The notes below the pieces were generated by a model, which had not been told where the DNA came from, did not search any database, and saw only the letters and a list, made by a program, of their open reading frames with translations. A program made the position numbers and the translations under genes. From Gammaproteobacteria bacterium (GTDB taxonomy: Bacteria; Pseudomonadota; Gammaproteobacteria; SZUA-229), in assembly GCA_029882355.1 (NCBI GenBank), contig JAOUKV010000010.1, positions 1 through 64,000 on the forward strand: a stretch of DNA of 64,000 nucleotides, in the 5' to 3' direction. This document shows positions 22,301 to 42,079 of this stretch, piece by piece. How positions within the stretch are numbered: position 1 is the first letter of the stretch; each line of letters opens with the position of its first letter.

Positions 22301-25300
22301 GGCTCCAGCTAAGAGTCTGCGCTAAAGAAACGCCATCACCGACAATAACAGGTGCTGCAATCGTGTTAAGCGCCCCCGTTACCGCAGGATTGCCGTTATA
22401 GGCCAGACCCAAACCAAGGCCATCAACAATACTGACATCGAAGGCATTAGAGAAATCATCAGCCACCACTCCACCCGATGCGGTTAGCGTTAATGTGTAC
22501 CGCAGAATATCACCCGCTGTCGGTGGCAGAGCTGGGCTGACGGCCTTAGTCAGTGTTACTAACGGCTCAGTCAGGCTTATTGATGTTGCCGTAACACCAC
22601 TACCACCTACAAACTGCGGACCACCGGAAGTGTTGGCAAATGTGTAATTAGCGGTGTTGGTAAAGCTGCTACCCGCATTGGCCAATATGGTGTTATCAAC
22701 GCGGGCACGCACTTCTATGACAGCTTGCTGACCCACTGGGATCTGCACAATATTCAGATTGACCTGACCTGGCAATACACTCGTGTCATTTAATACAAAA
22801 CCGTTACCACTGACTTCGGTGGCACTGACATAAATAAGACTGCTGTTTAACGTATCAGTAATATTAATATCATGCATTGCTGCATTCTTCGGATTCTGCG
22901 GAACAGTAATCTGATAGACAATCTCTTCACCAATAGTGGCTTCACCAGTTAGCGGTGACAGTGTTATTTTGGCTAGTGGATCAATGATGGCCGTATTAGT
23001 CATGGTGTAAACCACCGCAGCTAACGGTGAGTACGACTGACCTAAAGATCCATCCAGTGAATAATAACCATCAACGCTGACGCTGTTAGCCCAGATAGAG
23101 TTAGCAACAATGTCATTGTAAAAACCGATGTTGTAATCGATATCAACACACAAAGTTGATGCCACCGGTGTAATAAGCTGGAACAACATACTACCGCCAC
23201 GAGTAGCGGGGGCTGTGTAGATATAATTGACACCGGCAGTCTGCAAGACACCACCGATATAAACATCAGGGTTACCGAGACCGTTAGCTGGTCCGCTAAT
23301 GGTAGTTTCATTCAGTTCTGCCGCCAGTACGTCGGTCAACTGCACGTTATAGGCTGGAGATAAACCCGTGGTGTTACAGGATGACACCCGGAACTCCATG
23401 GTGTCGTTGATGATGTCGACAGCAAAGGGGCTGGCACGGGCAAGGCGATCAGTCTTAGTCAACGAATCCATCACCGGCTGTAACACGGTAAGACTGCTGC
23501 TACTGACCAGACGAAGCGGATCGACCACTGGATTTGCTGCCGCATCGATGTAACTCAGTGTGGCTGTATTGTTAAGAACCGTAGTTGGTGCCTGGGCAAT
23601 GGTAGTGATATTGTTTTCAATAACACGGGCACGGTATTCGATGACAAAAATTTCGGTACTGGCATCGCCCAGAGGATCATTATTGATATTACCCAGCGTC
23701 CAGTTCAATGTGCCACTGGCCCCGCCTGCCGGGATATTAGCCGCAGTAATAGTCGCATAGGCAAAATTGGAACCGACACCACTGGCGGGTGATGTGTAAT
23801 CAGCCACTGTATCACCATTGATGCTGACGACATCAACGAACACCATGCCCGCTGGCAGCACATCAGTGACGGCAACATTACGGGTCAGGCCTTCCTGCAA
23901 TGTTAGCGCCAGACGGTAAGTTGCAATATCGCCAATTCGAACGGTGGCATCACCTGCGGGTGCAAAGCTGTCATTAATCACTGACTTGGTTAGTGTATTA
24001 GTATCAGGCGTGATAACAGTGGCGATTGCTGGACCTGAACAATAGTCATTGGGTGCCACAACCACCGCTGGACAACCCGCACCTGAGCGTTCATTGCCAC
24101 TGGCCGTATTCAATGATGTCCAGTCGGCCCAGACACTGTTACTAATAGTGGTATTGGCTTGAACAGAAGCATCTACGATTGCTCGATAGGTTAGTACCAG
24201 TGATTGACCGACAGGAATATCGAGGCTGCCATCAGCATTACCCTGCCCCCAGATTAATGGCCCAGCTGGATCATTAGCGGGTGTCGCGTTAAAACCAATC
24301 GCAGCTACACCGTTAATTAAAGCTGTTGCGGTAAAACTAATATCTCGCTGTAATTCAGCTGGCAGCGTATCGACTACATTAGTATCAAAAGCGGTTGAGC
24401 TACCGGTATTGGTGAGGGTAACGACGTATTCGAGGATGTCACCGCCCACTGGTGGCTGTCCAGGATTACTGATATTGGTTGAAACCTTGGCCGTCGTCAG
24501 TAACGGTTCAACAACTGTTATTGAGCCGGCGGTCGTGGCGAGACCACCGGGTAATTGTAAGCCGCCGGAAATATCCGCAAAGGTATAGCTGGTGGTGTTA
24601 CTAAAGACATTACCGGCATTGGCTGATGTGGTGTTATCAACGCGGGTGCGTAATTCAATAATGGCCTGTTGGCCAGCAGGGATCTGCGTAATGTTTAAAT
24701 TAACCTGTCCCGGAAGGACACTGGTATCGTTGAGCGTAAATGCGTTGGCACTGGTGTCAATAGCGCTGACATAAATCAGGCTGCTGGCGAGGGTGTCTGT
24801 AATGTTGACATCAAACATCGCAGCATTTCTGACAACACTGGGCACGGTGATCTGGTAGACGATCTCTTCACCAATGGTGGCTTCACCGCTTACAGGTGAC
24901 AAAGTAGTCTTGGTAGGCGGTTCAATAACTGCCGTGTTACTCATGGTGTAGATGACGGGAGCCAGTGCAGGATAAATCTGACCTAAGGAGCCATCTACTG
25001 AGTAATAAGAATCTACGCTGGCGCTGTTATTCCAGGTCGAGTTGGCAGGAATGTCAGTATAGAAGCCGATATTGTAATCGATATCGACACACTGCCCCGG
25101 TGCAACCGGTGTTATAAGCTGGAATGCCATGTTGCCGCCGCGGGCTGCGGGGGCGGTGTAGCTATAATTCACACCGGCCGTTTGTAAGACGCCACCGATA
25201 TAGACATCAGGATTACCAACACCGTTAGTTGGTCCAGCTATGCTTGCCTCATTTAGTTCTGCGGCCAGTACATCGGTCAACTGAACATTATAGGCTGGAG

Positions 25301-28300
25301 ATAAACCGGTAGTATTACAGGAGGAAACTCGAAACTGCATAACATCAGTAGCAATATTGACAGTGAACGGACTTGCGCGGGCAAGACGATCGGTCTTGCT
25401 CAGTAAATCCAAAATGGGTTGTTGCACGGTAATACTGCTGCTGCTTACAAGCCGAGCAGGATCAACCACCGGAATGCCACCAACCAGATAAGCCAATGTG
25501 GCAGTATTAGTCAGAGTGCTGGTTGGTGTTTGCGCAATCGTGCTGACATCATTCTCAATAACGCGTGCGCTGTATTCAATTACCAGCGCATCAGTCGGCG
25601 TACCATCGCCGCTCGGCACATTGATAATATTGCCAAAGTCCCAAACCAGAGTGCCAGCATCACCGGCTATGGGTTCTGAGACGAGCGTATAAGTGAAACT
25701 AGCACCACCTGAGGCTGGCGAAATACTAACCAGACTGTCAAAGACCATTCCAGCTGGTAATACATCTGACACTGTGACGCTGCTGTTAGTGCCTTCGCCC
25801 AGATTCATCGTCAGTTGATAAGTAGCGGTGTCGCCAACACGAACGGTAGCATCAAGAGCGGTGCTACCGTCGGTAATCCAGCTGTTTGCGATAACCGCCT
25901 TGCTCAGACTATTGTTGTCGAGAGTGCTAGTAACCGTGGCGGGGCCAAAACAATAGTCATTAGGCGTAACTACCGTTGGACATCCTGCACCGGTACGCTC
26001 TGAGGCGCTGCTGCCATCCAGTGAACTCCAGTCGACCCATGCCTCATTACTGAAGAAAGCATTAGAACCAGCCGTCACCTGTACCTGATAGGTCAGTATC
26101 AGTACGCCACCAGGTGGGATATCCAGGCTACCGTCAAGATTGTCATTACCCCATATCAGTGGACCCGCCGATGCACCGGTGGGTGTTGGCTCAAAACCAA
26201 CAACAGGCACACCGTTGATGGTCGCGGTGGGTAAAAATGTAATGGCTGGCACTAATGCCAGCTCCGCCGGTAATATATCCACCACGTTAACATCGTATGC
26301 CATGGCGGTTGCGCTATCATTAGTAACCGTCAATACGTATTGCAGAATATCGCCATCGGTGACCGGGGAGGTCGGTAGTTTTGCTGGGGTGACGTTCGTT
26401 ACCGTCTTGGTGGCACTCAAACTCGACTCAACCACGGTCATATTAGTACTAACACCTGCCACACCATTCGTTTGCGTGGCACCGTTTGACCGATTATAGG
26501 TGTATGTAGCTATGTTACTAAAATTAAGGCCATTAATATTGGTGGCCGTATTCGCTAGCTCAACGGTGATCTCGATCACCGCCTGACCGCCCGCGGGAAT
26601 ATCGATACCCGTAACCAGATCTTCAATGACAGGAAAAGTAGCCGTACCGGTGTTACTGAGTGTCCATGCCCCACCGGCGATCACTGCCGCACTGACAAAG
26701 TTCATATCAGCACTGGATACAGTCAAATCATCCAGCACCCGTACATCGTACAGAGGCACTGCAACGGGAGTAGCGGGCACGGTGATCGTGTAGGTAAATT
26801 GTTCACCGATGGTGGCAGTAGCCTGAGTATTCACCTTCGACAGTGCACCGGGTGACTGAATCAGTATATCGGTGGTATCACCTGGGTCGTAAGGGAGAGA
26901 AATACCATTAATATAAGGGTCATCACTCTCCACACTAACAGGAGCGGGAATCTCGTTAGTCGCGTTAAGTATCGCCTGATTGGGCACTACAGTGCCGTTA
27001 GTGAGTGTCGGTAGCAAATTTACGTCGAACTCAAATATGATTTCACTGGTAGCGGGAGGAACAGGTGCTGAATCCAGATCGACGCCAAAGCCTTTAAATG
27101 TCAACGTACCTGTTCCGGAATCAACACTAAATGTCGTATTAAGAGGCAGCGGTGTAACTGGTACGACTGATGCTATATCAAATAAACCAGTATCCAGCAC
27201 ATCCTCAATCGTTATAGCTTTGAACGTCTGATCCAGATTGAACAGGCGTAAGCGATAACGCAATAGATCACCCGGTGCCGCCCCAACTGCTGGATTTTCC
27301 AGGGTAGTTCGATTTTCTACGGTCTTCTGAAAAAAGTAACCAGACAACGTCGTAGTGATAGTATGGTCATCCTCATGATCGGTAACACCCGGCGTACCAT
27401 CAGTTAATGTACCCGTATAAGTACGGACAGGATACGCACCACCAGGATCACCACTAAACCACTGGGTAGCCGCGGCAATATTGATTAACGGAAATGGATC
27501 TGCCTGTGATAACGGATCCAACTTGGACTGAAAGGTGATTCTCAGGTACTCAGAAGGGCCAATATTCATCAATGATGATGTCATTGTTACATCAAGCTCA
27601 CAGGCCACAGGATCATAAGTAGCGGTGTATAACGCGCCTGGACTTGCTGCACCTGTAACAGGAACCCCGACTGACGAAAAAACCTGAGCTGTGATTGGTC
27701 CCGTCGTGGGATCGTAAACACACATTCCAGCATAGTCGGGGTTGCCGGATACACCGTTAACAGGAAGCCTGTCCAGCATAGTGACATTCCATGCATCACC
27801 ACCACCGTTATTATGAATATCAATAGTAAAGTTGGCGTCAACCCCAAAATTCAGCGTTGTCTGATCTGCTGTTTTGGTAACCACCAGATTAGGCTCGGCG
27901 ATGACCATGGTCGCGATGCCCCATTCACCAGGCAATGTAAATATTTCAGTCAGAGGATCAATAAAGCCATCTGAATTAACATCAATTTCTCTAACGAACT
28001 GCCACTTGGCGGTATTGGTAAACGTCGACCCAATCACATTTGCACCCGTATCATTAAGAACAGCGGTGATCTCAATAACGATCTGATCGCCAATCAGGAT
28101 AGTGGGAATATTAAAAGTGAGCAGGCCAGCCACATTACTGAACGTATAATCAACGCCTTGAGTCAATGGAGCACCACCCAAAGAAACGACAGGTAAACCC
28201 ACCAGACCAATATCGGCACCCGTCGCATTGAGATCATCCCAGATAACAACATCAGTCAACTCATTTGGCGAAGGGGCACCAGCGGGGAACTGCATGGATG

Positions 28301-28769
28301 GTAGTGTTAGCGTATAGGTAAAGGGATCACCAATACCCGCCGAGGTCTGTCCGGCAGGAGGCTGTTTATCAATGGTCTCAGCTGGGATAACAAAATTCTG
28401 ACAACTAGCAGGGATGTCGGTGACCGAACCATTGGTAAACCAGATTTTATGACCCGCACCGGTATTACATGACATCTGCCCCGTGTGTATCACATTGTCA
28501 AAGATAGCGAGCAGCGGGACAGCATTATCAAAACTAAAGTTGCTGCCTAATGGGTTTGAGGCAGGGAAGTTTTGTATCGTACAACTAACGTCAATCTTGA
28601 TATTTGCTGGAGGAACAGGGTATACATTGCCATCAATCAGGCCATTGTACGGTGCATCAGAGCAAGCAACCTGTACCGCCTGCACACCACCAGACACCCC
28701 CAACAACAGGGCAAACAGCACCAACTGCAAGAAGCCATAACAGGAACGACCTAGCACTGCCAACTCCAT
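16374..28769 (-). CDS. Giant DUF11-repeat surface protein
   Basis: A 4131-residue protein with a Sec signal peptide (cut near GGVQA-VQV, about residue 32). Most of the length is DUF11-type beta-sandwich repeats, each with a GD--Y-LT-TN-G core, a V-V-D-LP segment and an I--GQ-V-I--- strand. Three consecutive super-repeats of about 640 residues occur in the middle. Near the C-terminus is a SdrD B-like domain (IIGKVFDDANMNGYQDEAE...GRFHITC), then an OmpA-like domain (IRLDIAGPVFEKNSTEIRL, LLLEELSKG, RISYLADTENSGLVDDR) lacking clear diaminopimelate-binding residues. No LPXTG, RTX, autotransporter or gliding type 9 signal is seen. It is very low in Cys and Lys and rich in Asp/Asn/Thr. Translationally coupled to the OmpA-barrel gene. 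A surface filament or adhesin is likely; its export route beyond Sec is unknown. Confidence 0.8.
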   Translation of the reverse strand: MELAVLGRSCYGFLQLVLFALLLGVSGGVQAVQVACSDAPYNGLIDGNVYPVPPANIKIDVSCTIQNFPASNPLGSNFSFDNAVPLLAIFDNVIHTGQMSCNTGAGHKIWFTNGSVTDIPASCQNFVIPAETIDKQPPAGQTSAGIGDPFTYTLTLPSMQFPAGAPSPNELTDVVIWDDLNATGADIGLVGLPVVSLGGAPLTQGVDYTFSNVAGLLTFNIPTILIGDQIVIEITAVLNDTGANVIGSTFTNTAKWQFVREIDVNSDGFIDPLTEIFTLPGEWGIATMVIAEPNLVVTKTADQTTLNFGVDANFTIDIHNNGGGDAWNVTMLDRLPVNGVSGNPDYAGMCVYDPTTGPITAQVFSSVGVPVTGAASPGALYTATYDPVACELDVTMTSSLMNIGPSEYLRITFQSKLDPLSQADPFPLINIAAATQWFSGDPGGAYPVRTYTGTLTDGTPGVTDHEDDHTITTTLSGYFFQKTVENRTTLENPAVGAAPGDLLRYRLRLFNLDQTFKAITIEDVLDTGLFDIASVVPVTPLPLNTTFSVDSGTGTLTFKGFGVDLDSAPVPPATSEIIFEFDVNLLPTLTNGTVVPNQAILNATNEIPAPVSVESDDPYINGISLPYDPGDTTDILIQSPGALSKVNTQATATIGEQFTYTITVPATPVAVPLYDVRVLDDLTVSSADMNFVSAAVIAGGAWTLSNTGTATFPVIEDLVTGIDIPAGGQAVIEITVELANTATNINGLNFSNIATYTYNRSNGATQTNGVAGVSTNMTVVESSLSATKTVTNVTPAKLPTSPVTDGDILQYVLTVTNDSATAMAYDVNVVDILPAELALVPAITFLPTATINGVPVVGFEPTPTGASAGPLIWGNDNLDGSLDIPPGGVLILTYQVQVTAGSNAFFSNEAWVDWSSLDGSSASERTGAGCPTVVTPNDYCFGPATVTSTLDNNSLSKAVIANSWITDGSTALDATVRVGDTATYQLTMNLGEGTNSSVTVSDVLPAGMVFDSLVSISPASGGASFTYTLVSEPIAGDAGTLVWDFGNIINVPSGDGTPTDALVIEYSARVIENDVSTIAQTPTSTLTNTATLAYLVGGIPVVDPARLVSSSSITVQQPILDLLSKTDRLARASPFTVNIATDVMQFRVSSCNTTGLSPAYNVQLTDVLAAELNEASIAGPTNGVGNPDVYIGGVLQTAGVNYSYTAPAARGGNMAFQLITPVAPGQCVDIDYNIGFYTDIPANSTWNNSASVDSYYSVDGSLGQIYPALAPVIYTMSNTAVIEPPTKTTLSPVSGEATIGEEIVYQITVPSVVRNAAMFDVNITDTLASSLIYVSAIDTSANAFTLNDTSVLPGQVNLNITQIPAGQQAIIELRTRVDNTTSANAGNVFSNTTSYTFADISGGLQLPGGLATTAGSITVVEPLLTTAKVSTNISNPGQPPVGGDILEYVVTLTNTGSSTAFDTNVVDTLPAELQRDISFTATALINGVAAIGFNATPANDPAGPLIWGQGNADGSLDIPVGQSLVLTYRAIVDASVQANTTISNSVWADWTSLNTASGNERSGAGCPAVVVAPNDYCSGPAIATVITPDTNTLTKSVINDSFAPAGDATVRIGDIATYRLALTLQEGLTRNVAVTDVLPAGMVFVDVVSINGDTVADYTSPASGVGSNFAYATITAANIPAGGASGTLNWTLGNINNDPLGDASTEIFVIEYRARVIENNITTIAQAPTTVLNNTATLSYIDAAANPVVDPLRLVSSSSLTVLQPVMDSLTKTDRLARASPFAVDIINDTMEFRVSSCNTTGLSPAYNVQLTDVLAAELNETTISGPANGLGNPDVYIGGVLQTAGVNYIYTAPATRGGSMLFQLITPVASTLCVDIDYNIGFYNDIVANSIWANSVSVDGYYSLDGSLGQSYSPLAAVVYTMTNTAIIDPLAKITLSPLTGEATIGEEIVYQITVPQNPKNAAMHDINITDTLNSSLIYVSATEVSGNGFVLNDTSVLPGQVNLNIVQIPVGQQAVIEVRARVDNTILANAGSSFTNTANYTFANTSGGPQFVGGSGVTATSISLTEPLVTLTKAVSPALPPTAGDILRYTLTLTASGGVVADDFSNAFDVSIVDGLGLGLAYNGNPAVTGALNTIAAPVIVGDGVSLAQTLSWSLADGNADIDIDEGTVVTVSYDVIVLDGVLAGQVLSNSAVAQWTSVDGNNANERDGSATPVVNDYLTLPAVTVLTTPNTNAITKSVLNETFAAIDGNVRIGDVIDYELRLNLQEGISPAVTLVDALPQGLQFEDVVSVNGVTVAPYAAVAPFSHSAVTVPSIVGNALTGPTTVTWNIGDITNAGDNNPANNDFVIVYRARVLNGVLLQTNSTILTNSVDFSYSSAAGTTTLSANAVVTGLQPLLTVTKTAVTAGIDTIIDANELITYTVNIANSGTAPAYDTVLQDIIPVGLRNGAATITMVSNSLLVAGTTPANIIPAYDPATGIATWNFDSGIADQYSIPAGDTLQVVYQLQAEPTLSASMTLTNQAQVQSYYSFDNNAVPTLGTVSGVRQVYGPGNIASTTLTTAGPNPLSKQNPAILTAAVGDSFTYRITVPVIPMTTALNDVRILDDLTASAADLGFVSVTRISGSQVWTPANTGTINNLVIEDITNGIDIPAGEQVVIDITVVLNDSAANVSGLLFNNSASYTFNQVNDNAATQTLGGGATTADMTIIGPDTVTMTKTGPAQMNPGIVEVFTLNAHNTGTAAAWDLTITDILPNPVPGGMCDTPPANISAQIFLADGVTAVTGVLVENVDYTSTYAPAPNCTLTLTMTSALAALPADNRLIVTYEALLDVDNPQGTILTNIAGATQWFSADTAGAGATGQIRTYTHALTNGTVGTPDHEDAHSVVTQSPIIQFYKNVANITSGQNPGTIAQPGDTLRYSLLIQNISVVALTNFSVTDEVDRLNASAMFEPGSLTVVTSPVGSDISNTNANGGTNGTGLMDVRALTLDAVGGVNDNLLIEFEVRLAPAITNATVVMNQAQLNSIVTGTLDSDEPVINGPDDPTIKGDEDPTPISIISAPAFEVWKTSQDLTGDPAILVAGDTLRYTITVKNTGSEDAINVQLLDQIPTNTAYLANSTRLNGVAVADAAAGVSALQAGMLINSANTATLGYLVADSNPLANNLASISFDVVVSASAINGSVISNQGFVNGDGKGSGPFIEQVTDDPGTVTIGDPTVDIVGSLPLIDALKTVAIQIESVTGTPGIVDPGDTLRYTMVVSNAGSLPATGVVLVDATPANTTYVANSVRLNGVSVPDNAGSPLIAGLDISSSDLAVPIAGAGTLTPGQIATITFDVLVDAAAATGTIISNQGIISSNEQANEPTDADGIDANGDQVTQIIVGNAQLLSITKEVLVVGGGAALAGGQLEYVIRVTNIGSVPANNIVITDNLDAPVAGQKSYVNTSATLNGLATGVNYLAPILTANYSAIYGDLLPGSTATLRFRVDLNAALLMGTTVTNNAQVDWNAPIQSATAGVSVDIGGIPGVANINGTAWHDDNFNAVPDASEQLLAGWFVDIYRDGVLFDTVVTDVNGVYQANGLVANDITGVQYELRFRAPNASANTAMLGMGGSIFTNSLQQISNIILSSGSNTQNLNLLINPNGLVYNSVMRTVVPGSTLTMLQAATGTPLPTGCFDDVAQQGQVTPAGGYYRFDINFSDPACSPGSDYLINIVAPPSGYIAAPSTAITAVTDASTAAYSVPVCSADAVAATTHCEAQATSSAPATNVTPGIATNYYMHLTLNNGTVPQDSQLFNNHIPIDPDLSNAVTITKTSSLLNATRGQMVPYTITISNTLAVPLLNVNVVDTIPPGFRYVNGSARMDGVNLEPVFDGLTLTWAGISLDTGNEHVIQLLLVVGSGVSEGEYINRVQMIDGLTGGAASPEATATVRVVPDPTFDCTDIIGKVFDDANMNGYQDEAEKGLANARVISARGLIMKTDEHGRFHITCAVVPNQDRGSNFILKLDERSLPSGYRVISENPRVQRATRGKMMKFNFAATIHRVIRLDIAGPVFEKNSTEIRLQWKPRLNLLLEELSKGASILRISYLADTENSGLVDDRIDVIEEEIMKLREQKECCSALTIETEILWRRGGPPSRGGTD
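20656..26445 (-). repeat. Three tandem 1.9-kb super-repeats inside the DUF11 gene
   Basis: Matching landmarks recur with a period of about 1.92-1.94 kb: copy A roughly 24526-26445, copy B 22586-24525, copy C 20656-22585. Each copy starts at a TVVE/SLTEP linker, then carries GDILxYxLTLT, a WADW(T/S)SL...ER-GAG-P-V--NDYC segment, RxGDxATYxL, and an ARVIEN or equivalent strand. Copies A and B also share LTDVLAAELNE, NPDVYIGGVLQTAGVNY and ATIGEEIVYQITVP almost unchanged; copy C is more diverged. The unit contains several DUF11 domains. This points to duplication in whole super-units rather than single domains. Boundaries are approximate. Confidence 0.8.
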
Positions 28770-29100: not shown

Positions 29101-30426
29101 CTATGTGGCCGGTAAGAAGTCGATTGGATAAAGAATAGTCATCTTTGCAGCACCTTCTTTAGCATTGAACTTAAACTGCATTACACGTTTGATAATATTC
29201 GCCGACAAACTCGCCGATTTAATATCACTCGATTCAATTTTACATGACGATACTGAGCCATTGGCTTCAATGGTAATACGCAAAACTATATTACCCTGCA
29301 ATGATGGGTCTTTGCGTAATTCGCGTTGATAGATCCGATATAATGCGGTCTTATAACGATCAAATATAATCTGTATATCTTCATCACTACGTGCAGGTTC
29401 TGCACTGCCTGTAGGACGGTCTGCACCGTCATCACCAATACCAATAGAGCTTTCTACACGAGAGAACTGTATACCACTCAAACCACTGCCTGCATTACCT
29501 GTATTTCGACTCAAAGATGATGAGCTGATGCCACTTATCGCAGACGAATTGGAGACCACCAAATTACGCGCTGCCTGATTTGATTTCTGACCACTGTTAT
29601 TAACTTTGGCACTGGCACCAAGATCCTCAATTGAAGTCATGCCCATTAACTCGGTAAAATTATCCTTAAAGGCAAGTACGCCAGATTTTTCAGCTTTTTT
29701 ACGAGCCTGTTTTTTATCCGTCGATGGTTTCTCGCTCTTCGTAAGCTCTTCTTCTTTTGGTTTTGTGGGCTCTGGTTTTGGCTCTTCCTTCTTAAGCAAT
29801 TTAGCCAGGCGCTCTGGTACTTTAACCTTAGCTGATGGGTCTGGCAGTGGTACTTGAATCATTGGAACGACATACCAAAGCAAAAAACTAAAAGCAAATG
29901 CAATGGCCATATATTTACGGACCAGCTTTTCATCTTTATTATTTTTTGACCATGGCATGACCATGGGCCTGAAAGGTAAGGCAGGAACTTCACGTTCAAT
30001 AATAAATTCATATTTACGCTGTTCTGCGATTTCGCGTACTTCAAGTATACCCTCTCGTGAGAGGCCGATAATATTGTTTACATTCCTAATATCAAGAAGA
30101 ACTTTATCGCGTTTTGCATGGAGAGCAGCAACCGAATCTTCATACTCATTTACACGATTACGAAGCTCAGAGATATAATTAGCAGAGTCATTCGCCGTCG
30201 CCTCTCTACCCAGAAAAAGATCAAAACCACCTAACTCATCTAAGTGCTCAAGTGAAACACAGACCTGTGACAGAGCGTCAAATCGCTGTTTGATTTCATC
30301 TGTATTTTCAAGCTCGTCAACAATTAGCTGTAGCGAGGCCTCAAGCTTTTTAAGCTCTATTTGAGCTTGCTCAAGTTCTGCATGCAGCACTGACTCTCGT
30401 GCTTTTAATGAGGCGTTAGTATTCAC
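29101..30426 (-). CDS. AgmX/PglI C-terminal-domain TonB-like protein
   Basis: A 441-residue bitopic inner-membrane protein. Residues 1-145 are cytoplasmic and largely coiled coil; one membrane segment spans about 172-191. A Lys/Glu/Pro-rich TonB-like stretch (about 203-247) follows, then a Ser/Asn-rich linker. The C-terminal 90 residues match the AgmX/PglI domain: YKTALYRIYQRELRKDPSLQG, NIVLRITIEANGSVSSCKI and FKFNAKEG, a fold related to the TonB C-terminus. In Myxococcus the AgmX/PglI-type proteins GltG and GltJ link the Agl proton motor to the periplasmic Glt proteins. The large cytoplasmic coiled coil is unlike ordinary TonB. It follows the second ExbD gene by 43 bp. The first codon is GTG with no clear Shine-Dalgarno site, so the exact start is less certain. 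Confidence 0.82.
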   Translation of the reverse strand: MNTNASLKARESVLHAELEQAQIELKKLEASLQLIVDELENTDEIKQRFDALSQVCVSLEHLDELGGFDLFLGREATANDSANYISELRNRVNEYEDSVAALHAKRDKVLLDIRNVNNIIGLSREGILEVREIAEQRKYEFIIEREVPALPFRPMVMPWSKNNKDEKLVRKYMAIAFAFSFLLWYVVPMIQVPLPDPSAKVKVPERLAKLLKKEEPKPEPTKPKEEELTKSEKPSTDKKQARKKAEKSGVLAFKDNFTELMGMTSIEDLGASAKVNNSGQKSNQAARNLVVSNSSAISGISSSSLSRNTGNAGSGLSGIQFSRVESSIGIGDDGADRPTGSAEPARSDEDIQIIFDRYKTALYRIYQRELRKDPSLQGNIVLRITIEANGSVSSCKIESSDIKSASLSANIIKRVMQFKFNAKEGAAKMTILYPIDFLPAT

Positions 30427-30469: not shown

Positions 30470-30964
30470 TTAACTTTGCGATGCTTTTTGGATAACAGCC
30501 AGTGATATATTTTCAAAGCCCATGCCGGAGCATGTACCCATTATTTTCTTTAAAACTTTAAAAGGAATATTCTCATGCGCCAGGATAGTTACCTCTTTAC
30601 TTTCATATGCTTTTTTAGTGCTTGCGCCTATCACTGAATTTTTAAGCTCATTTAATCTGGCGCCAATTTCTACAACAATCGGATTTTTACTATCAAGTAA
30701 TTCACGGGTGTCCACCACTTCTTCGCCCTGCACCAAAACAGCTGTTGGTGTCACCATAATCACAATAGTTTCACGCGGCTCTGTTTCCACTACTGAAGAC
30801 GGTATAACAATTTGTTTAGGTACTTCAATGACGATACCGCTTGAAGAGCTAGACAACAAAAAGAACACCAGAATGGTAAAAACATCCATTAAAGAGGTAA
30901 GGTTCATACCCTGAACTTTAGGTGCTCTTGACATACGCTTCATACGTCTTGACATTTTTTTCAT
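30470..30964 (-). CDS. ExbD/TolR-family stator protein (Asp present)
   Basis: A 164-residue protein: short basic cytoplasmic tail (MKKMSRRMKRMSRAPK), one membrane segment at about 22-42 and a periplasmic ExbD-like domain. The membrane segment is TSLMDVFTILVFFLL; D27 is in the place of the proton-carrying Asp of ExbD/TolR. Its start overlaps the stop of the first ExbD gene by 4 nt (ATGA). With the ExbB-like channel it should form the proton-driven motor that moves the AgmX/PglI protein. Confidence 0.88.
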   Translation of the reverse strand: MKKMSRRMKRMSRAPKVQGMNLTSLMDVFTILVFFLLSSSSSGIVIEVPKQIVIPSSVVETEPRETIVIMVTPTAVLVQGEEVVDTRELLDSKNPIVVEIGARLNELKNSVIGASTKKAYESKEVTILAHENIPFKVLKKIMGTCSGMGFENISLAVIQKASQS

Positions 30965-31458
30965 GGCGCATCCCCTATAGATATATCGGGAAACAAAATA
31001 GTCGGTTGCCCTTTTTCCTCACCTTCTACTGTTGGCGGCGGATCAGTTGCACGAATAGCATCCATCAATTGAACCAGATAGCGGTACTCAATATTAGGCT
31101 CCATCAAAACGGTGGCATCTTCTTTTTCAGGATAATCTTCTTTCAACTGTTGCAGCAGTTCTGAGAGTCGAGCTACATCATACTGGTCATCAAGCATTGG
31201 AATATTTGCAATCACACTACGGCCATTAGCTAACTGCAGTTTGTTTTTACGTACGATCACTTCAACAGCAATTTTTGGCTTCTTATTTGAAGAGCCACCC
31301 GCGGATGCAGGCATATTTAGCTCTAATATCGTGACACGAGTAAATACAGCTGTAAGCAACAAAAATGGAATCAAAATCACCATCAGATTCAGGAATGTAG
31401 TGACATCCAGCTCAGGTGGATCCTTTTTTTTGTGCCGCGGATTATTTCTTCTAGACAT
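30961..31458 (-). CDS. ExbD/TolR-family protein with Asn in place of the conserved Asp
   Basis: A 165-residue bitopic protein with a basic cytoplasmic N-terminus, one membrane segment (about 22-42) and a periplasmic domain (GRSVIANIPMLDDQ...YPEKEDATVLMEPNIEYRYLVQLMDAIR). In the membrane segment the sequence is TTFLNLMVILIPFLLLTA; N24 falls where ExbD/TolR proteins have their essential proton-binding Asp. An acidic D18 lies just outside. It may therefore be a structural partner to the following intact ExbD rather than an independent stator. It lies 2 bp downstream of the ExbB-like gene. Confidence 0.85.
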   Translation of the reverse strand: MSRRNNPRHKKKDPPELDVTTFLNLMVILIPFLLLTAVFTRVTILELNMPASAGGSSNKKPKIAVEVIVRKNKLQLANGRSVIANIPMLDDQYDVARLSELLQQLKEDYPEKEDATVLMEPNIEYRYLVQLMDAIRATDPPPTVEGEEKGQPTILFPDISIGDAP

Positions 31459-31460
31459 AC

Positions 31461-32114
31461 TTAACCAGCCTGACGCTTAGCAGCCTCAGAAATAATGTTA
31501 AGGGTTTTGACTGACGCCATTTCCAGACTGTCAACGATCTCACTGGTCTTGGATGTCAGCATGGCATGACAAATCAACAATGGAATACCGGCCATCAAAC
31601 CAAAAGCCGTTGTATTCATCGCAACCGAAATACTGGCAGACAGTAAATCAGCCTTCTCAGCAGGGTTAGCATTCGCCACAGCTGTAAACGCTTCAATCAG
31701 ACCCATAATGGTTCCGAGCAGACCCAGCAATGTTGAAATATTGGAGAACAGGGCAACATAAGGCGTGCGCTTCTCAAGCTGTGGAATAATTTCCATCATG
31801 CTCTCTTCCATGGCGATCTCAATATCATCACGTCGCCTGACAGCACCCTGGCGAGCCAGCCCCATACTCAATAATTGTCCAACTGCGGACTTGGACTCAT
31901 CTTCACCAGTCATTTGCCGTGCAGTATCGAAGTCACCTTCAGCCAGAACAGGTTCTAGCTGTTCCCACATTTTCCGGTTTGATTTGCTGACGGAAGCAAG
32001 CTTAACAAATCGTTCGGCGGCAATAGCCACACCTAATGCAAAAACAATAAGAATGGGATACATAAATGCACCACCAGATTGAAAAAAGTCAACAATTGTA
32101 TATATAAAACCCAT
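31461..32114 (-). CDS. MotA/TolQ/ExbB-family proton channel
   Basis: A 217-residue inner-membrane protein with three predicted membrane segments: about 15-33, 117-139 and 157-185. The family signature is present in the last two: LFSNISTLLGLLGTIMGLI and SVAMNTTAFGLMAGIPLLI. The cytoplasmic loop holds the AMEESM-IPQLEKRTPYVAL stretch typical of ExbB/TolQ. An ATG at 32114 is preferred over the adjacent upstream GTG because GAGGAA sits 7 nt before it. It energises the two following ExbD-like proteins. The 81 bp before it hold no gene but may contain an internal promoter. Confidence 0.92.
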   Translation of the reverse strand: MGFIYTIVDFFQSGGAFMYPILIVFALGVAIAAERFVKLASVSKSNRKMWEQLEPVLAEGDFDTARQMTGEDESKSAVGQLLSMGLARQGAVRRRDDIEIAMEESMMEIIPQLEKRTPYVALFSNISTLLGLLGTIMGLIEAFTAVANANPAEKADLLSASISVAMNTTAFGLMAGIPLLICHAMLTSKTSEIVDSLEMASVKTLNIISEAAKRQAG

Positions 32115-32198
32115 CACTTATTCCTCACAACATTTCAAAGTAGATTACTTACAAACAGCAATATAAAAGCCGATTGATTTTGATAATAACATTTCTTA

Positions 32199-32483
32199 TT
32201 ATTTCGCTGCAGAAGCATTATAGAAATTCACTTCACGCATAAAAACATCCTTATCCACAGGCATCAAGCTTTCGTTTAAAAGATTAGATGAAAGGTCCGT
32301 TTCCATACCAATTTCAGAACTTTTCCATGGCACGATATACAGCGATTTTGGTGCCTCATTATTGCCAACAATTGACATACCGGAAACAGCCTTAACATCT
32401 TCTGCTTTAACGGGTGAATTATATACTGTAGCAGACATAATAGTAGTAGCCAGCAACAATAAGGTTTTTCTGGAAAAATACAT
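32199..32483 (-). CDS. Small secreted protein of the motor operon
   Basis: A 94-residue exported protein, with a signal peptide of about 25 residues (FSRKTLLLLATTIMSATVYNSP). The mature part is about 70 residues with the pattern GMSIVGNNEAPKSLYIVPWK...ESLMPVDKDVFMREVNFYN. The motif GNNEAPKSLYIVPW followed by ESLMPVD is distinctive and seems to travel with motor/TPR operons of this kind; I know no assigned function. The ATG at 32483 is chosen over an in-frame TTG because GGGGAA lies 7-8 nt upstream. It overlaps no gene but begins 2 nt after the stop of the TPR lipoprotein. Confidence 0.75.
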   Translation of the reverse strand: MYFSRKTLLLLATTIMSATVYNSPVKAEDVKAVSGMSIVGNNEAPKSLYIVPWKSSEIGMETDLSSNLLNESLMPVDKDVFMREVNFYNASAAK

Positions 32484-32485
32484 GA

Positions 32486-33139
32486 TCAATTCCCCATACG
32501 AATACGCAGGTCAGAAATCCACAAGAGAACATTTTTATCCCCGGGATCGGCCTTACTATAGATTTCATAATTAGCCATTGCACAACTCAAATCATTAATA
32601 TACAAATCACATAAAATACCTAAGTTTTTCCTGGCCGGAAGAAAAGCAGTAAAACGCTCCAATATGCGTTCATAAACACGCCTGGCTTCAGAAAATCTGC
32701 CTGTCTTACGATAGATAATCGCCATTTCATTATTCGCTGCAGGGTGTGCTGAATTCATCTCCAATGCCTTCGTAAGGCTTTTCTCTGCGAGCAGCATATC
32801 ACCGGTTATTCTATAGGCAACACCAAGATTAAAATGGGTAGCAAGACTTTTTTCAGAACGTTCAGCAACTCTATTCAGAAGTCGGATACCTCGTTCATAA
32901 TCTTTCTGCTCAAGCAAACTAACCGCCTTCTCAAAATCAGCCTTAACTTCAGGCCTGACATCAATATCATCACGAATAATAAAGTCACTACTAATATTAG
33001 CTGTAACAACCTCTTCTACCGGAGCTGTTGTGCAAGCAGTAAGCAGGCCTACAACTAACAAAGCTAACAACAAGCGATGTGTTAAAGCAATCACAATATT
33101 CTTACCAGTAAAATCACAAGTCATCAAAAGCCCTCTCAT
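32486..33139 (-). CDS. TPR lipoprotein
   Basis: A 217-residue lipoprotein, lipobox LLTAC (near residue 35), after an unusually long N-region. Residues about 60-190 carry TPR motifs: DFEKAVSLLEQKDYERGI, FNLGVAYRITGDMLLAEKSL, ALEMNSAHPAANNEMAIIYRKTG and ARRVYERILERF. It overlaps the stop of the 1058-aa TPR gene by 4 nt (ATGA). It resembles the TPR lipoproteins (AglT/GltE class) of Myxococcus gliding complexes; location is probably the outer membrane facing the periplasm. Confidence 0.82.
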   Translation of the reverse strand: MRGLLMTCDFTGKNIVIALTHRLLLALLVVGLLTACTTAPVEEVVTANISSDFIIRDDIDVRPEVKADFEKAVSLLEQKDYERGIRLLNRVAERSEKSLATHFNLGVAYRITGDMLLAEKSLTKALEMNSAHPAANNEMAIIYRKTGRFSEARRVYERILERFTAFLPARKNLGILCDLYINDLSCAMANYEIYSKADPGDKNVLLWISDLRIRMGN

Positions 33140-36100
33140 TTTGAGCCTGTAGAAGTTTCAGCGTCTGGAACAGCGGTCTGAGACTTATCAATATCATTAG
33201 CAGCATCGACTGATTGAACCGAATCAGGCACCTGCGTTTGATTAGCGTTAGAAGAAACACCTTCTACGGTCAGAACCGGTGCAGGCGCAACCGGTACTGG
33301 AATTGCGACAAATTTATACTGGTAATGATCCATGAATGACATAAAACCAGTACTCTCCTCATATTTAGCATAACGGGCAGGCATCAAAGAACCTAGCTTC
33401 TCAAGGCTTTTATCAATCCAAGAGCTATACACACCAATACTGATTAACTCAAGATTTTTACGATGCACTGCGATAGCTTTCTCTTCAAAAGGGAATATTT
33501 GATCTTCAAGTGCTAGCTCATATTCTTCCATCTCAATTTCATTTAGTTTCTCAGGACGCTCAGACTCAGCTAACGAGCGGCTAAAATTATAATAAATCTC
33601 AGCGAGATAGTAGGTTGCTGCCGCCGTCACATCACCAACTTCAAACTTTACTAATTTATTAAATTCGGTAACCGCATATTTCATTGCGCGTTTTTTTCTA
33701 AGCAAATTTTTCTTGAATGGCTTGTTTAATTTTATCACCGCAAATTTTTCAAAGGCAGGCTCAGTCAACACCAACAAAGATTTAGCGGCCAAAAATCTGG
33801 TACGATCCGTACGTTCCTGACCTGCCCTGGCATCAATCGAAATAACGCGTTTAAGCTCAGAGTGATATTTCTTCTCATTACCCCAGGATTTATATAAATT
33901 TGCCATCTTATAACGTGTTTCCAGAGCAAATTCCAGGGGCTTAGGAAACAAATCTACGTAACGCTGGTAAACAACTAGTGCACGTTTGTGATTTTCAACT
34001 TTTTCGTACATTTTAGCTGCAAGAATCAAAGCCTCTCTTCGCACATCATTATCTTTAGACTCTTTTTCAATGCGCTCAAATTCTACGGCAGCTTCAGCAT
34101 AACGCTCAGCCTCCTGATAAACCACAGCTAACTTTTTAGTAGCTTCATGCAACATCTTCACATCTTTGAATGTGTTTCTAAACGCAACTAATACTTTTGC
34201 AGCTCTCCCCCAATCATTCAATTTAATCAGTACAGCAGCAGCGTCAAACTCAGCTGTTTTTCTTATACTGGACTTTGGCGCGACATTTGCTATACGTAAA
34301 AAATGATCAGCCGCTACTTTATATTCTTGCAATAGCGCCGCCGCTTCACCCTGTTTATAAATAGATGCGGCAAGATTATTTACCAGTGATTCTCTATCTT
34401 TATGCTTAATATCAGTCAGCAGTAAAACCTGTGCGTATGCTTTCTCAGCCTCAACATAGAGATTGGTTTCATAAGATGAATGCGCAACAATCATCCAGGC
34501 ACCACGTCGATACTCTGCTTTTGTATTAGGATAATTATCTACCAGCTTAGTCGCGGTTATTATGGCTAGAGCATAATCTTTCATCTCAAAGATATCATCA
34601 GCAACCGCTGCCAATACGATAGCGGCCTTATCATGTTTTGGAAAGGCATCAGAAAACTTTAACGAGCTACGAATAACATCTTGCATGGCAATGGGATGCA
34701 TCGCCACGCTGGCGGCTTTTAAATTCTCACGAAATGCAAAGACAGATGCATAACCTGAGGCGGACGATTTTTCATGCAAGGGATAATTATAAGCAACACG
34801 CTCATACTCTCTTGCTGAATTAGCATATTCATTACCTTGCAGCAGTAATTGAGCAAATTTGTAATGGATTTCTGGCGTTTTCTCATCTTTTGGAAATGAT
34901 GATATAAATTCTTTGTACCAGTGAGTAGCTTCCGCATAATGCATTTTCTTTTTCGAAGCGAACAATTTATTTCTAAAAAGAGCATGGTAATGGTATGCAA
35001 GATCGCTAATATTTGTTTGCAAAAGGGCAATTACTTTGGGATATTTTTTAACATCAAAATGTTTCCAATATTCTGATTTCACACCGTAGGCACTGGCAAA
35101 ACCACGTTTAGATTCGACCACCAATTTAGGAAAACGTCCTTGTTTATATATTTCAATTACACGCATGTAAAAATGCGGTGAAATCTCATGAAGAGGATTA
35201 CGATCAATAAACGCACCATAAGTTTTTGCGGCGTCACCAAAACGTCGTTTAATGAAGTAATGCTCTGCCAGATTACTATAAACACCTAATTCGTACGGTT
35301 TTCTACCGACCTTATCAAAGTGATCAATAATTGATTCAGCACCTTCAAGATTTGAAAAACTCAAACTAATTACGCGATAAGTATCATTGATACGTTTCAT
35401 ATCAACTTTGTTTTCAGTTTGCTCAAAGTCATAGCCAATAGACACTTTATAATCTAGCAGCGACATAAAAAACTCTAGAGCTTCTTCATACATCTCCTGC
35501 TTGTAAAATGTCCACCCAAGTTTATATAAGGCAAGATCATAGTACGATGAATTCGAACCCATATTCACGATTGATTTATAGGCATCTTCTGAATCCAGGA
35601 ATTTCTTTCGAGTGAAAAAATACTCCGCACGCCTGAACTGAACCTCATCCATATACCTGGAAGTCGGATACTCTTTAACAATACGATTCATGACAACCAT
35701 TGCGCCTTCAACATCAGCCATATCTTCATAGGCCCGTGACATCTGATATAAGACCTGATCATTGCGTTCATACAAAGGAAATCGTTCCAGTAACTGCTTA
35801 TACAGGGCAATAGCTTCTTTAGCACCGACGTTATTCATATCAGCGGAGGAGCCATCCGCTAAAGTAGCCACATCATCCACTGCAGACTCAATCTCGTCGG
35901 CTTTTGTTGCGCGTTTCTCAAATGCAATATCTGATTCATCTTTTGCAATGACAGTTTCATCGGTACTGGTTTTTTGTTTTCTAGCCTCTTTTTTAACCGG
36001 CACTATATCTGCTGACCTGGTCGGTGCATCCAGCTCTTCAACTGGTACTGCATCTAGTTGATTATTTTGACGTTCAATTTTTAGATCTGCCAAACGCCGT

Positions 36101-36309
36101 ATAGCCTCAGGAGTCATTGCTGACTCAGGTGTCTGCTCGAGAAATTGCTGGTAACTTTGCATCGCCTTTTCTATGCCGCCAGTAATTTTTTCATCTTCAA
36201 GCTTAATTTCCACATCACGCAATTGCGCCAGAGTTCCGTACTCACCAATGCTGGCACATGCATTCAGCAGTATCGACAGAACAAAAATTAGGCCGAAACG
36301 AATTTTCAT
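33136..36309 (-). CDS. Large TPR lipoprotein
   Basis: A 1057-residue lipoprotein, lipobox LLNAC (Cys near residue 18). After an N-terminal linker with charged Lys/Glu stretches (about 80-150), TPR and TPR-like helical pairs run through the protein, for example YKQLLERFPLYERNDQVLYQ, YYDLALYKLGWTFYKQ, YAEATHWYKEFISSFPKDE, and AEAAVEFERIEKESKDND. The C-terminal tail is acidic/low-complexity. No enzyme motif. Its ATG overlaps the previous stop (TGATG). Tetratricopeptide proteins of this size in motor operons are thought to form periplasmic scaffolds between inner- and outer-membrane parts. Confidence 0.82.
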   Translation of the reverse strand: MKIRFGLIFVLSILLNACASIGEYGTLAQLRDVEIKLEDEKITGGIEKAMQSYQQFLEQTPESAMTPEAIRRLADLKIERQNNQLDAVPVEELDAPTRSADIVPVKKEARKQKTSTDETVIAKDESDIAFEKRATKADEIESAVDDVATLADGSSADMNNVGAKEAIALYKQLLERFPLYERNDQVLYQMSRAYEDMADVEGAMVVMNRIVKEYPTSRYMDEVQFRRAEYFFTRKKFLDSEDAYKSIVNMGSNSSYYDLALYKLGWTFYKQEMYEEALEFFMSLLDYKVSIGYDFEQTENKVDMKRINDTYRVISLSFSNLEGAESIIDHFDKVGRKPYELGVYSNLAEHYFIKRRFGDAAKTYGAFIDRNPLHEISPHFYMRVIEIYKQGRFPKLVVESKRGFASAYGVKSEYWKHFDVKKYPKVIALLQTNISDLAYHYHALFRNKLFASKKKMHYAEATHWYKEFISSFPKDEKTPEIHYKFAQLLLQGNEYANSAREYERVAYNYPLHEKSSASGYASVFAFRENLKAASVAMHPIAMQDVIRSSLKFSDAFPKHDKAAIVLAAVADDIFEMKDYALAIITATKLVDNYPNTKAEYRRGAWMIVAHSSYETNLYVEAEKAYAQVLLLTDIKHKDRESLVNNLAASIYKQGEAAALLQEYKVAADHFLRIANVAPKSSIRKTAEFDAAAVLIKLNDWGRAAKVLVAFRNTFKDVKMLHEATKKLAVVYQEAERYAEAAVEFERIEKESKDNDVRREALILAAKMYEKVENHKRALVVYQRYVDLFPKPLEFALETRYKMANLYKSWGNEKKYHSELKRVISIDARAGQERTDRTRFLAAKSLLVLTEPAFEKFAVIKLNKPFKKNLLRKKRAMKYAVTEFNKLVKFEVGDVTAAATYYLAEIYYNFSRSLAESERPEKLNEIEMEEYELALEDQIFPFEEKAIAVHRKNLELISIGVYSSWIDKSLEKLGSLMPARYAKYEESTGFMSFMDHYQYKFVAIPVPVAPAPVLTVEGVSSNANQTQVPDSVQSVDAANDIDKSQTAVPDAETSTGSK

Positions 36310-38306
36310 CACTTTGGCTCTTTCCTGGTTGTCTCTTGATTAGCCGCTTTATCCTTAGCATCTTCAAGCAATGCTTTTTCGGCTTGCTCCGCTGCCTTCC
36401 TTGCTTGTTCTGCACTTTCCTCTGCTGCTTTTTTGTATTCATCATCAAGCTGTTTTTTTTGTGCCCGATCATAACTTTCAGCCAGTGCAAATCTTGCTTT
36501 CACCTGATCACCTTCAATACGCTTACGACGTATATCCAGCTCATTAACCGCCATTGATTCGAGCATATGCCCTTGTCCGAGCATGGCTGATTTTATCCGT
36601 TCCTGCGCTTCCAGAACTTTAATATGCAAAGTATTAAGCGCGGCATCATAACCTTCGTAGCTTTGTGTTGCTGCCTGACGAGTGCGTACAAATGAACGAT
36701 AGATTTCTTTTAAATCGGCAACCACACCATCAAGCTCACGCAAACGTTTGAAGGCTTGTGTAAGTCGGTCATGATATTGAGTATAAATGTTCCAATCTAA
36801 TACACCTCGAAGGCGATCCACACGCTGTCTCTGCTCATTTGTTTTTGGCAGATGTTGCACACGTTTCTCTAATTTCGCTATGGATACACCATCGATACGC
36901 TCTGTTACCGTGGCTAAAAATTGTGGACGTGGCGCAATCAACATAGATTGCAACTTATTTTCCAGATTATCGCGTTGCTCAATACGCAGACGCATACGTG
37001 AATCGAGAAATTGAAATTGTTTTTCAACTACAGGCAATAATGGTTTGTAATATTCTCGCCTAATATTAACCATCTCCTGATAGGCGCCAATATCCCTCTC
37101 CCATGCTAATAAGCGTTTACGCATTTCTTCAAGATCAAAATAATTTTGCAGCGACTCCTGAAAATCATGTGATGCCATTAAATGCATGAGATAGTGAGTT
37201 TCTGGTGCTTCGGGTAAATCACGTAATTTGATCACCCAATTGCTATCCTGCTTTAACTCCTCTCGCGCCAATGCTTCAAGAAACTTTCCGTCACGAATAC
37301 TTTCGATAGATGCATCAAGCTTGGCCAATTCCGTGTCGTAAGATTCCAGAGCCTTGCCATATAAGATAGCCGACTTACCATGCAAGCCAAGCTTGCCATA
37401 GGCGAATGGAACACCCAGCATTACTTCCTGAACAGCACGGTCTGTGACATTACGTTTTGATAACATCGTCCAGGGAACCAACGCACGATCATATCGATCA
37501 AGCGCAATTTCAGCCCAGCCTGCACCTAACAAAGCTCGATTTGCAAACGCACCATCAAGACGTACTCGATACAGATATTTTTTAGCCAGCGCAGGATCAC
37601 CTGACTCCAGCAGCTTATAACCCAGCGCTAAATTTGACTTATCTCTAATCGATTTCGTACCTTCATCGCTACCACTACTGGTTCCAGCTTTATCCAGCTG
37701 GGCAATCCCTTCAGCATCCTTATTCAGCTGTAATAGCGCAATACCTAAATTGTAAGCTGCAAAACCGCCATGTGTATCACTACTCTGAAGCCCTGTTAAA
37801 ATTTCGATCGCATCGGTAGGACGTCCATTGACCATGAAAATCACAGCCTTGATATAGGCAATATCATCACGGACCTCATCAGGTAATTCGCCCTCGATCT
37901 TTTCAATAGCGTGCAGAGCATTTACCGGTTGGTTTTTTTGCAACAATATTTTTGCCAGCCGATAGATAGCCTTATTACGGACAGCCGGTTCGACATTGCC
38001 TTCAATGACCGATTTAATCGCTCTTCCGGCACGTTGATGCATGCGGTAATAAAGCTCAAAATCACCGACTGAGAATTGCGCGTTATCTATTAAGAGATGT
38101 AATGAATCAAGACCGGGATCGTCCAGTCCATAATACTGCCCCAGCTCTGTATCTAGCCGGGAGATAGCATCAAAATACTCAGCCTGGTTAGCATAGAAAA
38201 TTGCCTCTCCAAAAAAAACATCGGTGGATTTCTCTGCAGCCGCCGTATGAAAAGACAATGCTGCCAGACTGACAGTACTAATCAGCAGTAAAGCTAAGCG
38301 TTGCAT
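36309..38306 (-). CDS. Periplasmic TPR and coiled-coil protein
   Basis: A 665-residue protein with signal peptide (cut near FHTAAA-EK, residue 24). Residues about 25-290 hold TPR-like repeats (YAKQAEYFDAI-type, YRLAKILLQKNQPVNAL, YNLGIALLQLNKDAEGI, LALGYKLLESGDPALA). Residues about 380-600 are mostly coiled coil, and the last 60 are Ala/Glu/Lys-rich coiled coil. No lipobox, so it is likely soluble in the periplasm. It begins 3 nt after the previous stop and overlaps the next start by one base. A scaffold in the same complex is the best reading. Confidence 0.8.
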   Translation of the reverse strand: MQRLALLLISTVSLAALSFHTAAAEKSTDVFFGEAIFYANQAEYFDAISRLDTELGQYYGLDDPGLDSLHLLIDNAQFSVGDFELYYRMHQRAGRAIKSVIEGNVEPAVRNKAIYRLAKILLQKNQPVNALHAIEKIEGELPDEVRDDIAYIKAVIFMVNGRPTDAIEILTGLQSSDTHGGFAAYNLGIALLQLNKDAEGIAQLDKAGTSSGSDEGTKSIRDKSNLALGYKLLESGDPALAKKYLYRVRLDGAFANRALLGAGWAEIALDRYDRALVPWTMLSKRNVTDRAVQEVMLGVPFAYGKLGLHGKSAILYGKALESYDTELAKLDASIESIRDGKFLEALAREELKQDSNWVIKLRDLPEAPETHYLMHLMASHDFQESLQNYFDLEEMRKRLLAWERDIGAYQEMVNIRREYYKPLLPVVEKQFQFLDSRMRLRIEQRDNLENKLQSMLIAPRPQFLATVTERIDGVSIAKLEKRVQHLPKTNEQRQRVDRLRGVLDWNIYTQYHDRLTQAFKRLRELDGVVADLKEIYRSFVRTRQAATQSYEGYDAALNTLHIKVLEAQERIKSAMLGQGHMLESMAVNELDIRRKRIEGDQVKARFALAESYDRAQKKQLDDEYKKAAEESAEQARKAAEQAEKALLEDAKDKAANQETTRKEPK

Positions 38307-41947: not shown

Positions 41948-42079
41948 TTTTCTTCCCCTTTTCAAATACGTTTTTATTTTTGTTTTCGCATTTTTTGTGC
42001 CTGTCTGAGTATTTATTCAAAACCCTTTATTTCCATACACTTACAAGGCACTTCTAAAACCCTTCACAGGTTGGAAAAA

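Follow-up and report, generated by a model that had tools for sequence, protein, structure and literature searches.

A review of 5:2 motors describes their 10-fold rotational symmetry as almost certainly universal (PMC9389320), and the structures of TolQRA are reported to place the two TolR Asp residues in unequal environments (PMC12965293). Glu176 of ExbB is described as essential, its role being unclear (PMC8599685), and TolA and TonB are said to carry a conserved His in their hydrophobic segment (PMC12204202). For the gliding motor of Myxococcus xanthus, the review leaves open whether AglQ and AglS form hetero- or homodimers (PMC9389320), and in the Oar system of the same species deletion of either exbD gene gives a developmental phenotype (PMC6434023). 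In a literature search confined to one library, we found no account of an Asp-less ExbD paired with an Asp-bearing one.

Here, we describe such a pair. It is encoded in a stretch of 64,000 nucleotides (hereafter the window; positions 1 to 64,000 of contig JAOUKV010000010.1, assembly GCA_029882355.1) from a member of the Gammaproteobacteria, within a gene cassette that we compare below with relatives from several phyla.

Results

The cassette and its genes

The cassette is read from the minus strand of the window. The genes for the first and second ExbD-like subunits, ExbD1 (30961..31458, 165 aa) and ExbD2 (30470..30964, 164 aa), overlap by the ATGA at 30961-30964 and are served by one shared gene for an ExbB/TolQ-like subunit (31461..32117, 218 aa). 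PF02472 (ExbD) matches ExbD1 with 58.1 bits and ExbD2 with 43.9 bits, over a curated cut-off of 25.4, and PF01618 matches ExbB with 86.8 bits (cut-off 22.9). The source genome (2.88 Mb in 62 contigs) holds five PF02472 matches, two of them in the cassette. Single-chain AF2 models of ExbD1 and ExbD2 (mean pLDDT 78.7 and 76.5) predict for each a transmembrane helix, at residues 19-43 and 22-41 respectively, and an ExbD/TolR-like periplasmic domain; their best PDB matches are 8pek (ExbD, E 7.6e-3) and 5by4 (TolR, E 1.6e-3), none being at or below 0.001, and these models support the ExbD/TolR fold alone.

Next to ExbD2 lies the gene for a TonB-like transducer (29101..30426, minus strand, 441 aa) with one hydrophobic segment and a C-terminal domain of the AgmX/PglI type (TonB-like); among 107 full-length relatives of this ORF, a set that was not deduplicated, the most hydrophobic segment lacks His in 92. 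On the other side of ExbB, and on the same strand, follow a small protein of 96 aa with a signal-like N-terminus (32199..32489), which thus sits between ExbB and a TPR protein of 217 aa with a lipoprotein-like N-terminus (32486..33139), a large protein of 1058 aa with TPR matches (33136..36312) and a 665-aa protein that matches TPR models weakly (36309..38306). The 96-aa protein has neither a Pfam nor an NCBIfam match. Relatives of it were found in 74 of 80 loci and of the TonB-like protein in 75 of 80; where at least 5 kb of upstream sequence was available, the 217-aa and 1058-aa proteins each had relatives in 62 of 62 loci and the 665-aa protein in 61 of 62. A 178-aa protein (P0008) had no relatives in the 80 loci. 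Named Microbulbifer strains also carry the cassette.

Downstream of the cassette, two giant genes occupy 11215-28769 of the minus strand; the product of 4131 aa has DUF11-like repeats and an OmpA-like end, as read by eye, and that of 1719 aa has OmpA domains. We considered them as cassette members and set the idea aside: no relative of the 1719-aa protein (P0011) appeared in the 80 loci within flanks of up to 6 kb, a search that covered this one of the two genes. A gene for an RpoS-type sigma factor (40940-41965, minus strand) lies upstream of the cassette region.

ExbD1 ends in the tail LFPDISIGDAP, in which L155, F156, G162, A164 and P165 are invariant over 22 rows and residues 158-163 are modelled by AF2 as a strand. 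GDAP also forms the last residues of 92 of the 274 first subunits surveyed below. This tail may be a docking site.

The proton site of ExbD1 and ExbD2

The first-pass annotation of this DNA had put N24 of ExbD1 and D27 of ExbD2 at the site of the proton-carrying Asp. Its ORF positions and both letters were borne out on the sequence, and HMMER alignment to E. coli-type ExbD chains brings N24 (codon 31387..31389, minus strand) and D27 (codon 30884..30886, minus strand) into the column of E. coli Asp25: the N of 'lditaflnLmvvL' and the D of 'lnlvsLmDvFtiL' both fall on the Asp of 'invtpfIDVmlvL', some of the aligned stretches around the site having low scores when taken on their own. A profile-profile alignment of the ExbD1 and ExbD2 families likewise pairs N24 with D27 (hhalign probability 96.4). 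The Asp that marks a proton-carrying ExbD is consequently found in ExbD2, as D27, and not in ExbD1. D18 of ExbD1, the residue whose alignment to the site would have overturned the annotation, was checked as the carrier and rejected; it stands six residues before the site, in a variable column (D 76, N 29, E 3 and S 1 of 109).

The ExbD1 site is Asn in all 109 rows formed by the window and 108 further loci, and the ExbD2 site is Asp in all 106 rows from the window and 105 loci. Both genes are present in 105 of the 108 cassette loci, and the remaining three loci end at or just past ExbD1. Outside the cassette, among those ExbD matches of the source genome and eight others for which a locus was read, Asp is kept by 30 of 30, three Asp/Asp pairs included, and for this reason the Asn of ExbD1 is not a matter of chance.

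A survey of neighbouring ExbD pairs

How far does this arrangement extend? The query P0001 matched 170 of 369 genomes of the class at E <=0.001, many of them weakly, and by hand count its best match reached 1e-20 or better in 81. A profile of ExbD1 matched, at E <=0.001, 112 of 140 genomes from the phylum of a Myxococcales MAG (L082), 26 of 100 from that of a Nitrospirae MAG (L077), 14 of 118 from that of Desulfatitalea (L086) and 5 of 119 from that of an Acidobacteria MAG (L099); at E <=1e-9 its matches numbered 35 of 395 genomes in the L077 phylum and 25 of 395 in the L086 phylum. Phylum names here follow the record titles, and many of these profile matches are remote from the cassette of the window.

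From 345 loci in Gammaproteobacteria, Myxococcota and other phyla we obtained 291 pairs of adjacent ExbDs, which reduce to 274 distinct ones. At the site, Asp is found in the second ExbD of all 274, and the first has Asn in 191, Asp in 62, Ser in 16, Cys in 2, Gly in 2 and Thr in 1. Since retrieval relied on a profile of N-type first subunits, these proportions are biased and are not natural frequencies, and pairs with the roles reversed, in which the second ExbD would lack the Asp, are harder to catch in this way. Among 212 first subunits, the residues that replace Asp (N, S, C, G, T) are small and for the most part polar, and A, L and V do not occur. A strict requirement for Asn can be ruled out, given the S, C, G and T just listed, the D of a nested clade described below and the relatives with Asp in both subunits. 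Two loci with Ser in the first ExbD (L184 and L185) have tandem ExbB genes before the pair, with T or A in the Glu176 column.

Judged from these alignments, N24 is no local mutation, as the pattern recurs across 274 distinct pairs. The split put forward in the first-pass annotation, between one subunit with a carboxylate and one without, is real and conserved, in all cassette rows and in 212 of the 274 pairs.

Changes that accompany loss of the ExbD1 Asp

In ExbD1 of the window, the residue at +7 from the site is a proline (P31, codon 31366..31368, minus strand). Pro occupies this position in 211 of the 212 non-Asp first subunits, L180 with Asn being the exception, and in one of the 62 Asp ones (L321). 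ExbB changes as well. In the 252 pairs with an upstream ExbB, 48 of the 57 ExbBs that accompany an Asp first subunit carry the Glu of TM3 that corresponds by alignment to E. coli Glu176, as against 1 of the 195 that accompany a non-Asp one; the window's ExbB lacks it, its column being occupied by V165 (codon 31623..31625, minus strand). T136 and T170, which align with the pore residues Thr148 and Thr181, are invariant over 25 rows, and their columns hold Thr in 251 and 252 of the 252 ExbBs, respectively. The column of T169 behaves differently, with Thr in 5 of 57 ExbBs beside Asp first subunits vs 179 of 195 beside non-Asp ones. Among single-ExbD systems, the TM3 Glu is missing in 12 of 40.

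Three clade contrasts, which we chose ourselves from the tree (4 vs 9, 2 vs 6 and 24 vs 24 rows), were compared column by column. In ExbB, 3 of 205 columns (L131, V165 and T169) switch completely in all three, the next best reaching 0.75 of 1. In ExbD1, full switches among 36 columns around the transmembrane helix are found at the site, at the residue before it and at +7. In ExbD2, none of 136 columns switches fully in the three contrasts (best 0.88). The annotation had called ExbD1 a structural subunit. The label is probably too weak for a protein with a proline of its own (the 211 of 212 above) and three linked residues in the ExbB membrane part.

In a first sample, the rule that a pair without the first Asp has no TM3 Glu held without exception (0 of 165), and the larger sample weakened it through L337, with Ser and Glu, and L321, with Asp, Val in the Glu column and the proline present. 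Eight more Asp pairs lack the Glu: L241 and L269 (His), L285, L291 and L295 (Ile or Met), and L137, L141 and L197 (Val or Gln), the last three being distant Acidobacterial pairs.

A nested return to Asp

In L177 and L200-L203, an ExbD1 with a cassette-type body and GDAP tail has a transmembrane helix with Asp and no proline, and the accompanying ExbB has Glu, with Cys replacing T169. On a tree built from ExbD2 and from ExbB minus its TM3 stretch, a clade of L177, L200 and L203 (100/100) is united with L053 (100/99) within a clade of 17 rows that is otherwise N/V (100/100). In L177 and L200-L203, the Asp-bearing ExbD1 helix (LNLTPMMDILTVLV in L200) resembles the ExbD2 helix of the same operon (LNLIPMMDVLTVLV), a likeness that suggests a swap between exbD1 and exbD2. 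A second contrast of this kind is a three-row clade (100 and 100/99) in which L210 has D and Glu, and L204 and L207 have N and Val. The TonB-like gene is followed by another ExbB in L077, L081, L086 and L090, as would be expected from a tandem duplication of the cassette; we considered these copies as a source of the Asp form and dropped the idea, the three readable ones being V-type and that of L081 cut.

The largest tree, of 123 rows, requires six changes of the site state and twelve of its letter; with the site state shuffled, 29 to 38 changes are required (20 shuffles). Six independent contrasts were available. The Glu follows the site in four, opposes it in none and shows no difference in two (168 of 200 pairings), or follows in three, opposes in none and shows no difference in three (32 of 200), giving p 0.125-0.25. 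The +7 proline follows in five, opposes in none and shows no difference in one (194 of 200 pairings; p 0.0625-0.125). Both sign tests remain above 0.05, with few independent contrasts.

Lone Asp-less ExbDs

Of the unpaired ExbDs, 45 have Asp at the site, 11 have Asn and 2 have Gly, and one is doubtful (M, score 2). Among the 11 with Asn, three belong to the cassette and stand at the edge of their locus, and one comes from a run of three consecutive ExbDs with N, D and N at the site (L308). Nine lone Asp-less ExbDs, all from the search of the phylum Myxococcota (L170, L172, L230, L236, L252, L256, L262, L294 and L302), have no recognised ExbB or second ExbD within the approximately 1.5 kb fetched on each side, and they contradict the notion that an Asp-less ExbD always adjoins an Asp partner. 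Each of the nine, whether Asn or Gly, has the +7 proline as well. An ExbB encoded elsewhere might serve them in trans, or an Asp-less ExbD may have a role in its own right, and because the nine exist the heteromer with the product of the next gene is not the whole story everywhere.

Discussion

We propose, with a probability of roughly 57% and on grounds of sequence comparison, that the product of the cassette is a motor of the ExbB/TolQ type, driven by protons, with the composition ExbB5:ExbD1:ExbD2 and a single proton carrier. The nine lone Asp-less ExbDs lower the odds of this reading and raise those of two rivals considered below, and the exceptions L321 and L337 also count against it. Given one overlapping pair of exbD genes and one exbB gene, this would be the simplest machine that the cassette could make. 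One ExbB pentamer would hold one copy each of ExbD1 and ExbD2, and ExbD2 would carry the proton on D27. ExbD1, having lost the carboxylate while keeping a small, mostly polar residue and a proline two helical turns further on, would serve as a partner that carries no proton, giving the pore its shape and holding ExbD2 and the TonB-like transducer in position. With one carrier, a turn would take five protons and steps of 72 degrees, instead of ten and 36. It is from alignment, conservation, gene order, the association of the changes and the nested clade in which they reverse together that we infer assembly in one pore with a single proton site per motor.

Since ExbB shifts with the state of ExbD1, the simplest reading is that the ExbD1 helix sits in the ExbB pore, and the association fits one pore holding both ExbD helices, which lends partial support to the heteromeric packing suggested in the first-pass annotation. 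Given that the ExbD1 carboxylate and the TM3 Glu tend to go missing together, a link between this Glu and the second carrier Asp is most likely. As ExbD crosses the membrane from the cytoplasm outwards, the +7 proline and the level of Glu176 should both be periplasmic to the Asp. The coupled exchange of Pro and Glu might then represent two ways to open the outer half of the proton path.

Could ExbD1 instead be a brake on the motor? As a regulatory decoy it would render ExbB pentamers inactive or slow and so tune output, the working motor being made with ExbD2 homodimers. ExbD(D25N) is reported as inactive (PMC11658791), which would allow an Asp-less ExbD to poison a motor, and the lone Asp-less ExbDs, with neither ExbB nor partner nearby, are placed as a trans-acting regulator might be. 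Yet it would be odd for three of the 205 ExbB columns, all membrane residues, to track the state of ExbD1 in a pore made for ExbD2 homodimers, and ExbD1 is the first gene of the overlapping pair; we consider the decoy unlikely. The same lone ExbDs would also suit two homomeric complexes that use a common ExbB, the motor being made with ExbD2 and a passive clutch or anchor with ExbD1, and each ExbD does have its own ExbD/TolR-like periplasmic domain. Against such a division stand the joint presence of the two genes in all cassette loci but the three that end at or just past ExbD1 and the tracking of ExbD1 by ExbB residues, which suggests one adapted pore, making this arrangement distinctly unlikely.

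Two further readings concern the Asn itself. It might pass protons by way of a bound water, so that both helices conduct, and the small, mostly polar nature of the replacements would suit this. We give it very little credence, however, in view of the Gly found at the site, the missing TM3 Glu beside 194 of 195 non-Asp first subunits and the inactivation of E. coli ExbD by D25N (PMC11658791). Loss of a catalytic residue commonly signals decay, and the Asn could in principle mark a paralogue headed for loss; this is scarcely credible for a protein whose transmembrane helix and C-terminal tail are nearly invariant, a conservation that contradicts decay, and whose kind, the Asp-less first subunit, occurs in 212 of 274 distinct pairs. 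In favour of the heteromeric motor, which we prefer, one built with ExbD1 only should not run, given the inactive D25N form described in PMC11658791.

More tentatively, and with rather more doubt than confidence, the survey may point to a widespread class of ExbB-type rotary motors of 5:1:1 composition, with one carrier and 72-degree steps, in which a disarmed helix and its proline would replace the ring of Glu176 in opening the periplasmic half-path and in which the two-Asp and one-Asp forms would have switched several times. The many bacteria with such pairs, together with the matching shifts in the ring protein, suggest a one-armed version of a motor that is usually pictured with two equal arms. 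A motor with a single carrier Asp would break the 10-fold symmetry and would offer a natural test of whether one carrier suffices, and the N/D pairs would encode in their genes an inequality like that of the TolR Asps. The pattern also links Glu176 of ExbB to the partner Asp. With Microbulbifer strains among the carriers, tests in culture look possible.

Compared with the TonB-ExbB-ExbD system of E. coli (ExbB5:ExbD2), the cassette draws on the same families, has T136 and T170 for Thr148 and Thr181 and encodes a TonB-like C-terminal domain in the next gene. Unlike that system, it has two different ExbDs with the Asp in one only, an ExbB without the Glu of Glu176, and a transducer that ends in an AgmX/PglI-type domain and whose relatives mostly lack the His of the hydrophobic segment (the 92 of 107 above). 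The vWA force-transducer clusters described in PMC12204202 resemble it in combining a TPR gene, a tolQ-like gene and a heterologous tolR-like pair; the section on these clusters makes no mention of one Asp being lost, and they differ in using a vWA transducer; for separate TPH-vWA pairs it describes a conserved Asp. The Ton operons of Sphingobium SYK-6 and the Oar system of M. xanthus share with the cassette one exbB and two exbD genes, but SYK-6 keeps Asp25 in both ExbDs and Glu176 in ExbB1 (PMC8599685). AglRQS, the gliding motor of M. xanthus, is also alike in having one MotA-like and two MotB-like proteins, and the TonB-like protein is matched in its C-terminal part by the models of GltG and GltJ; the review credits both AglQ and AglS with a conserved Asp (PMC9389320), whereas ExbD1 has N24 in its place.
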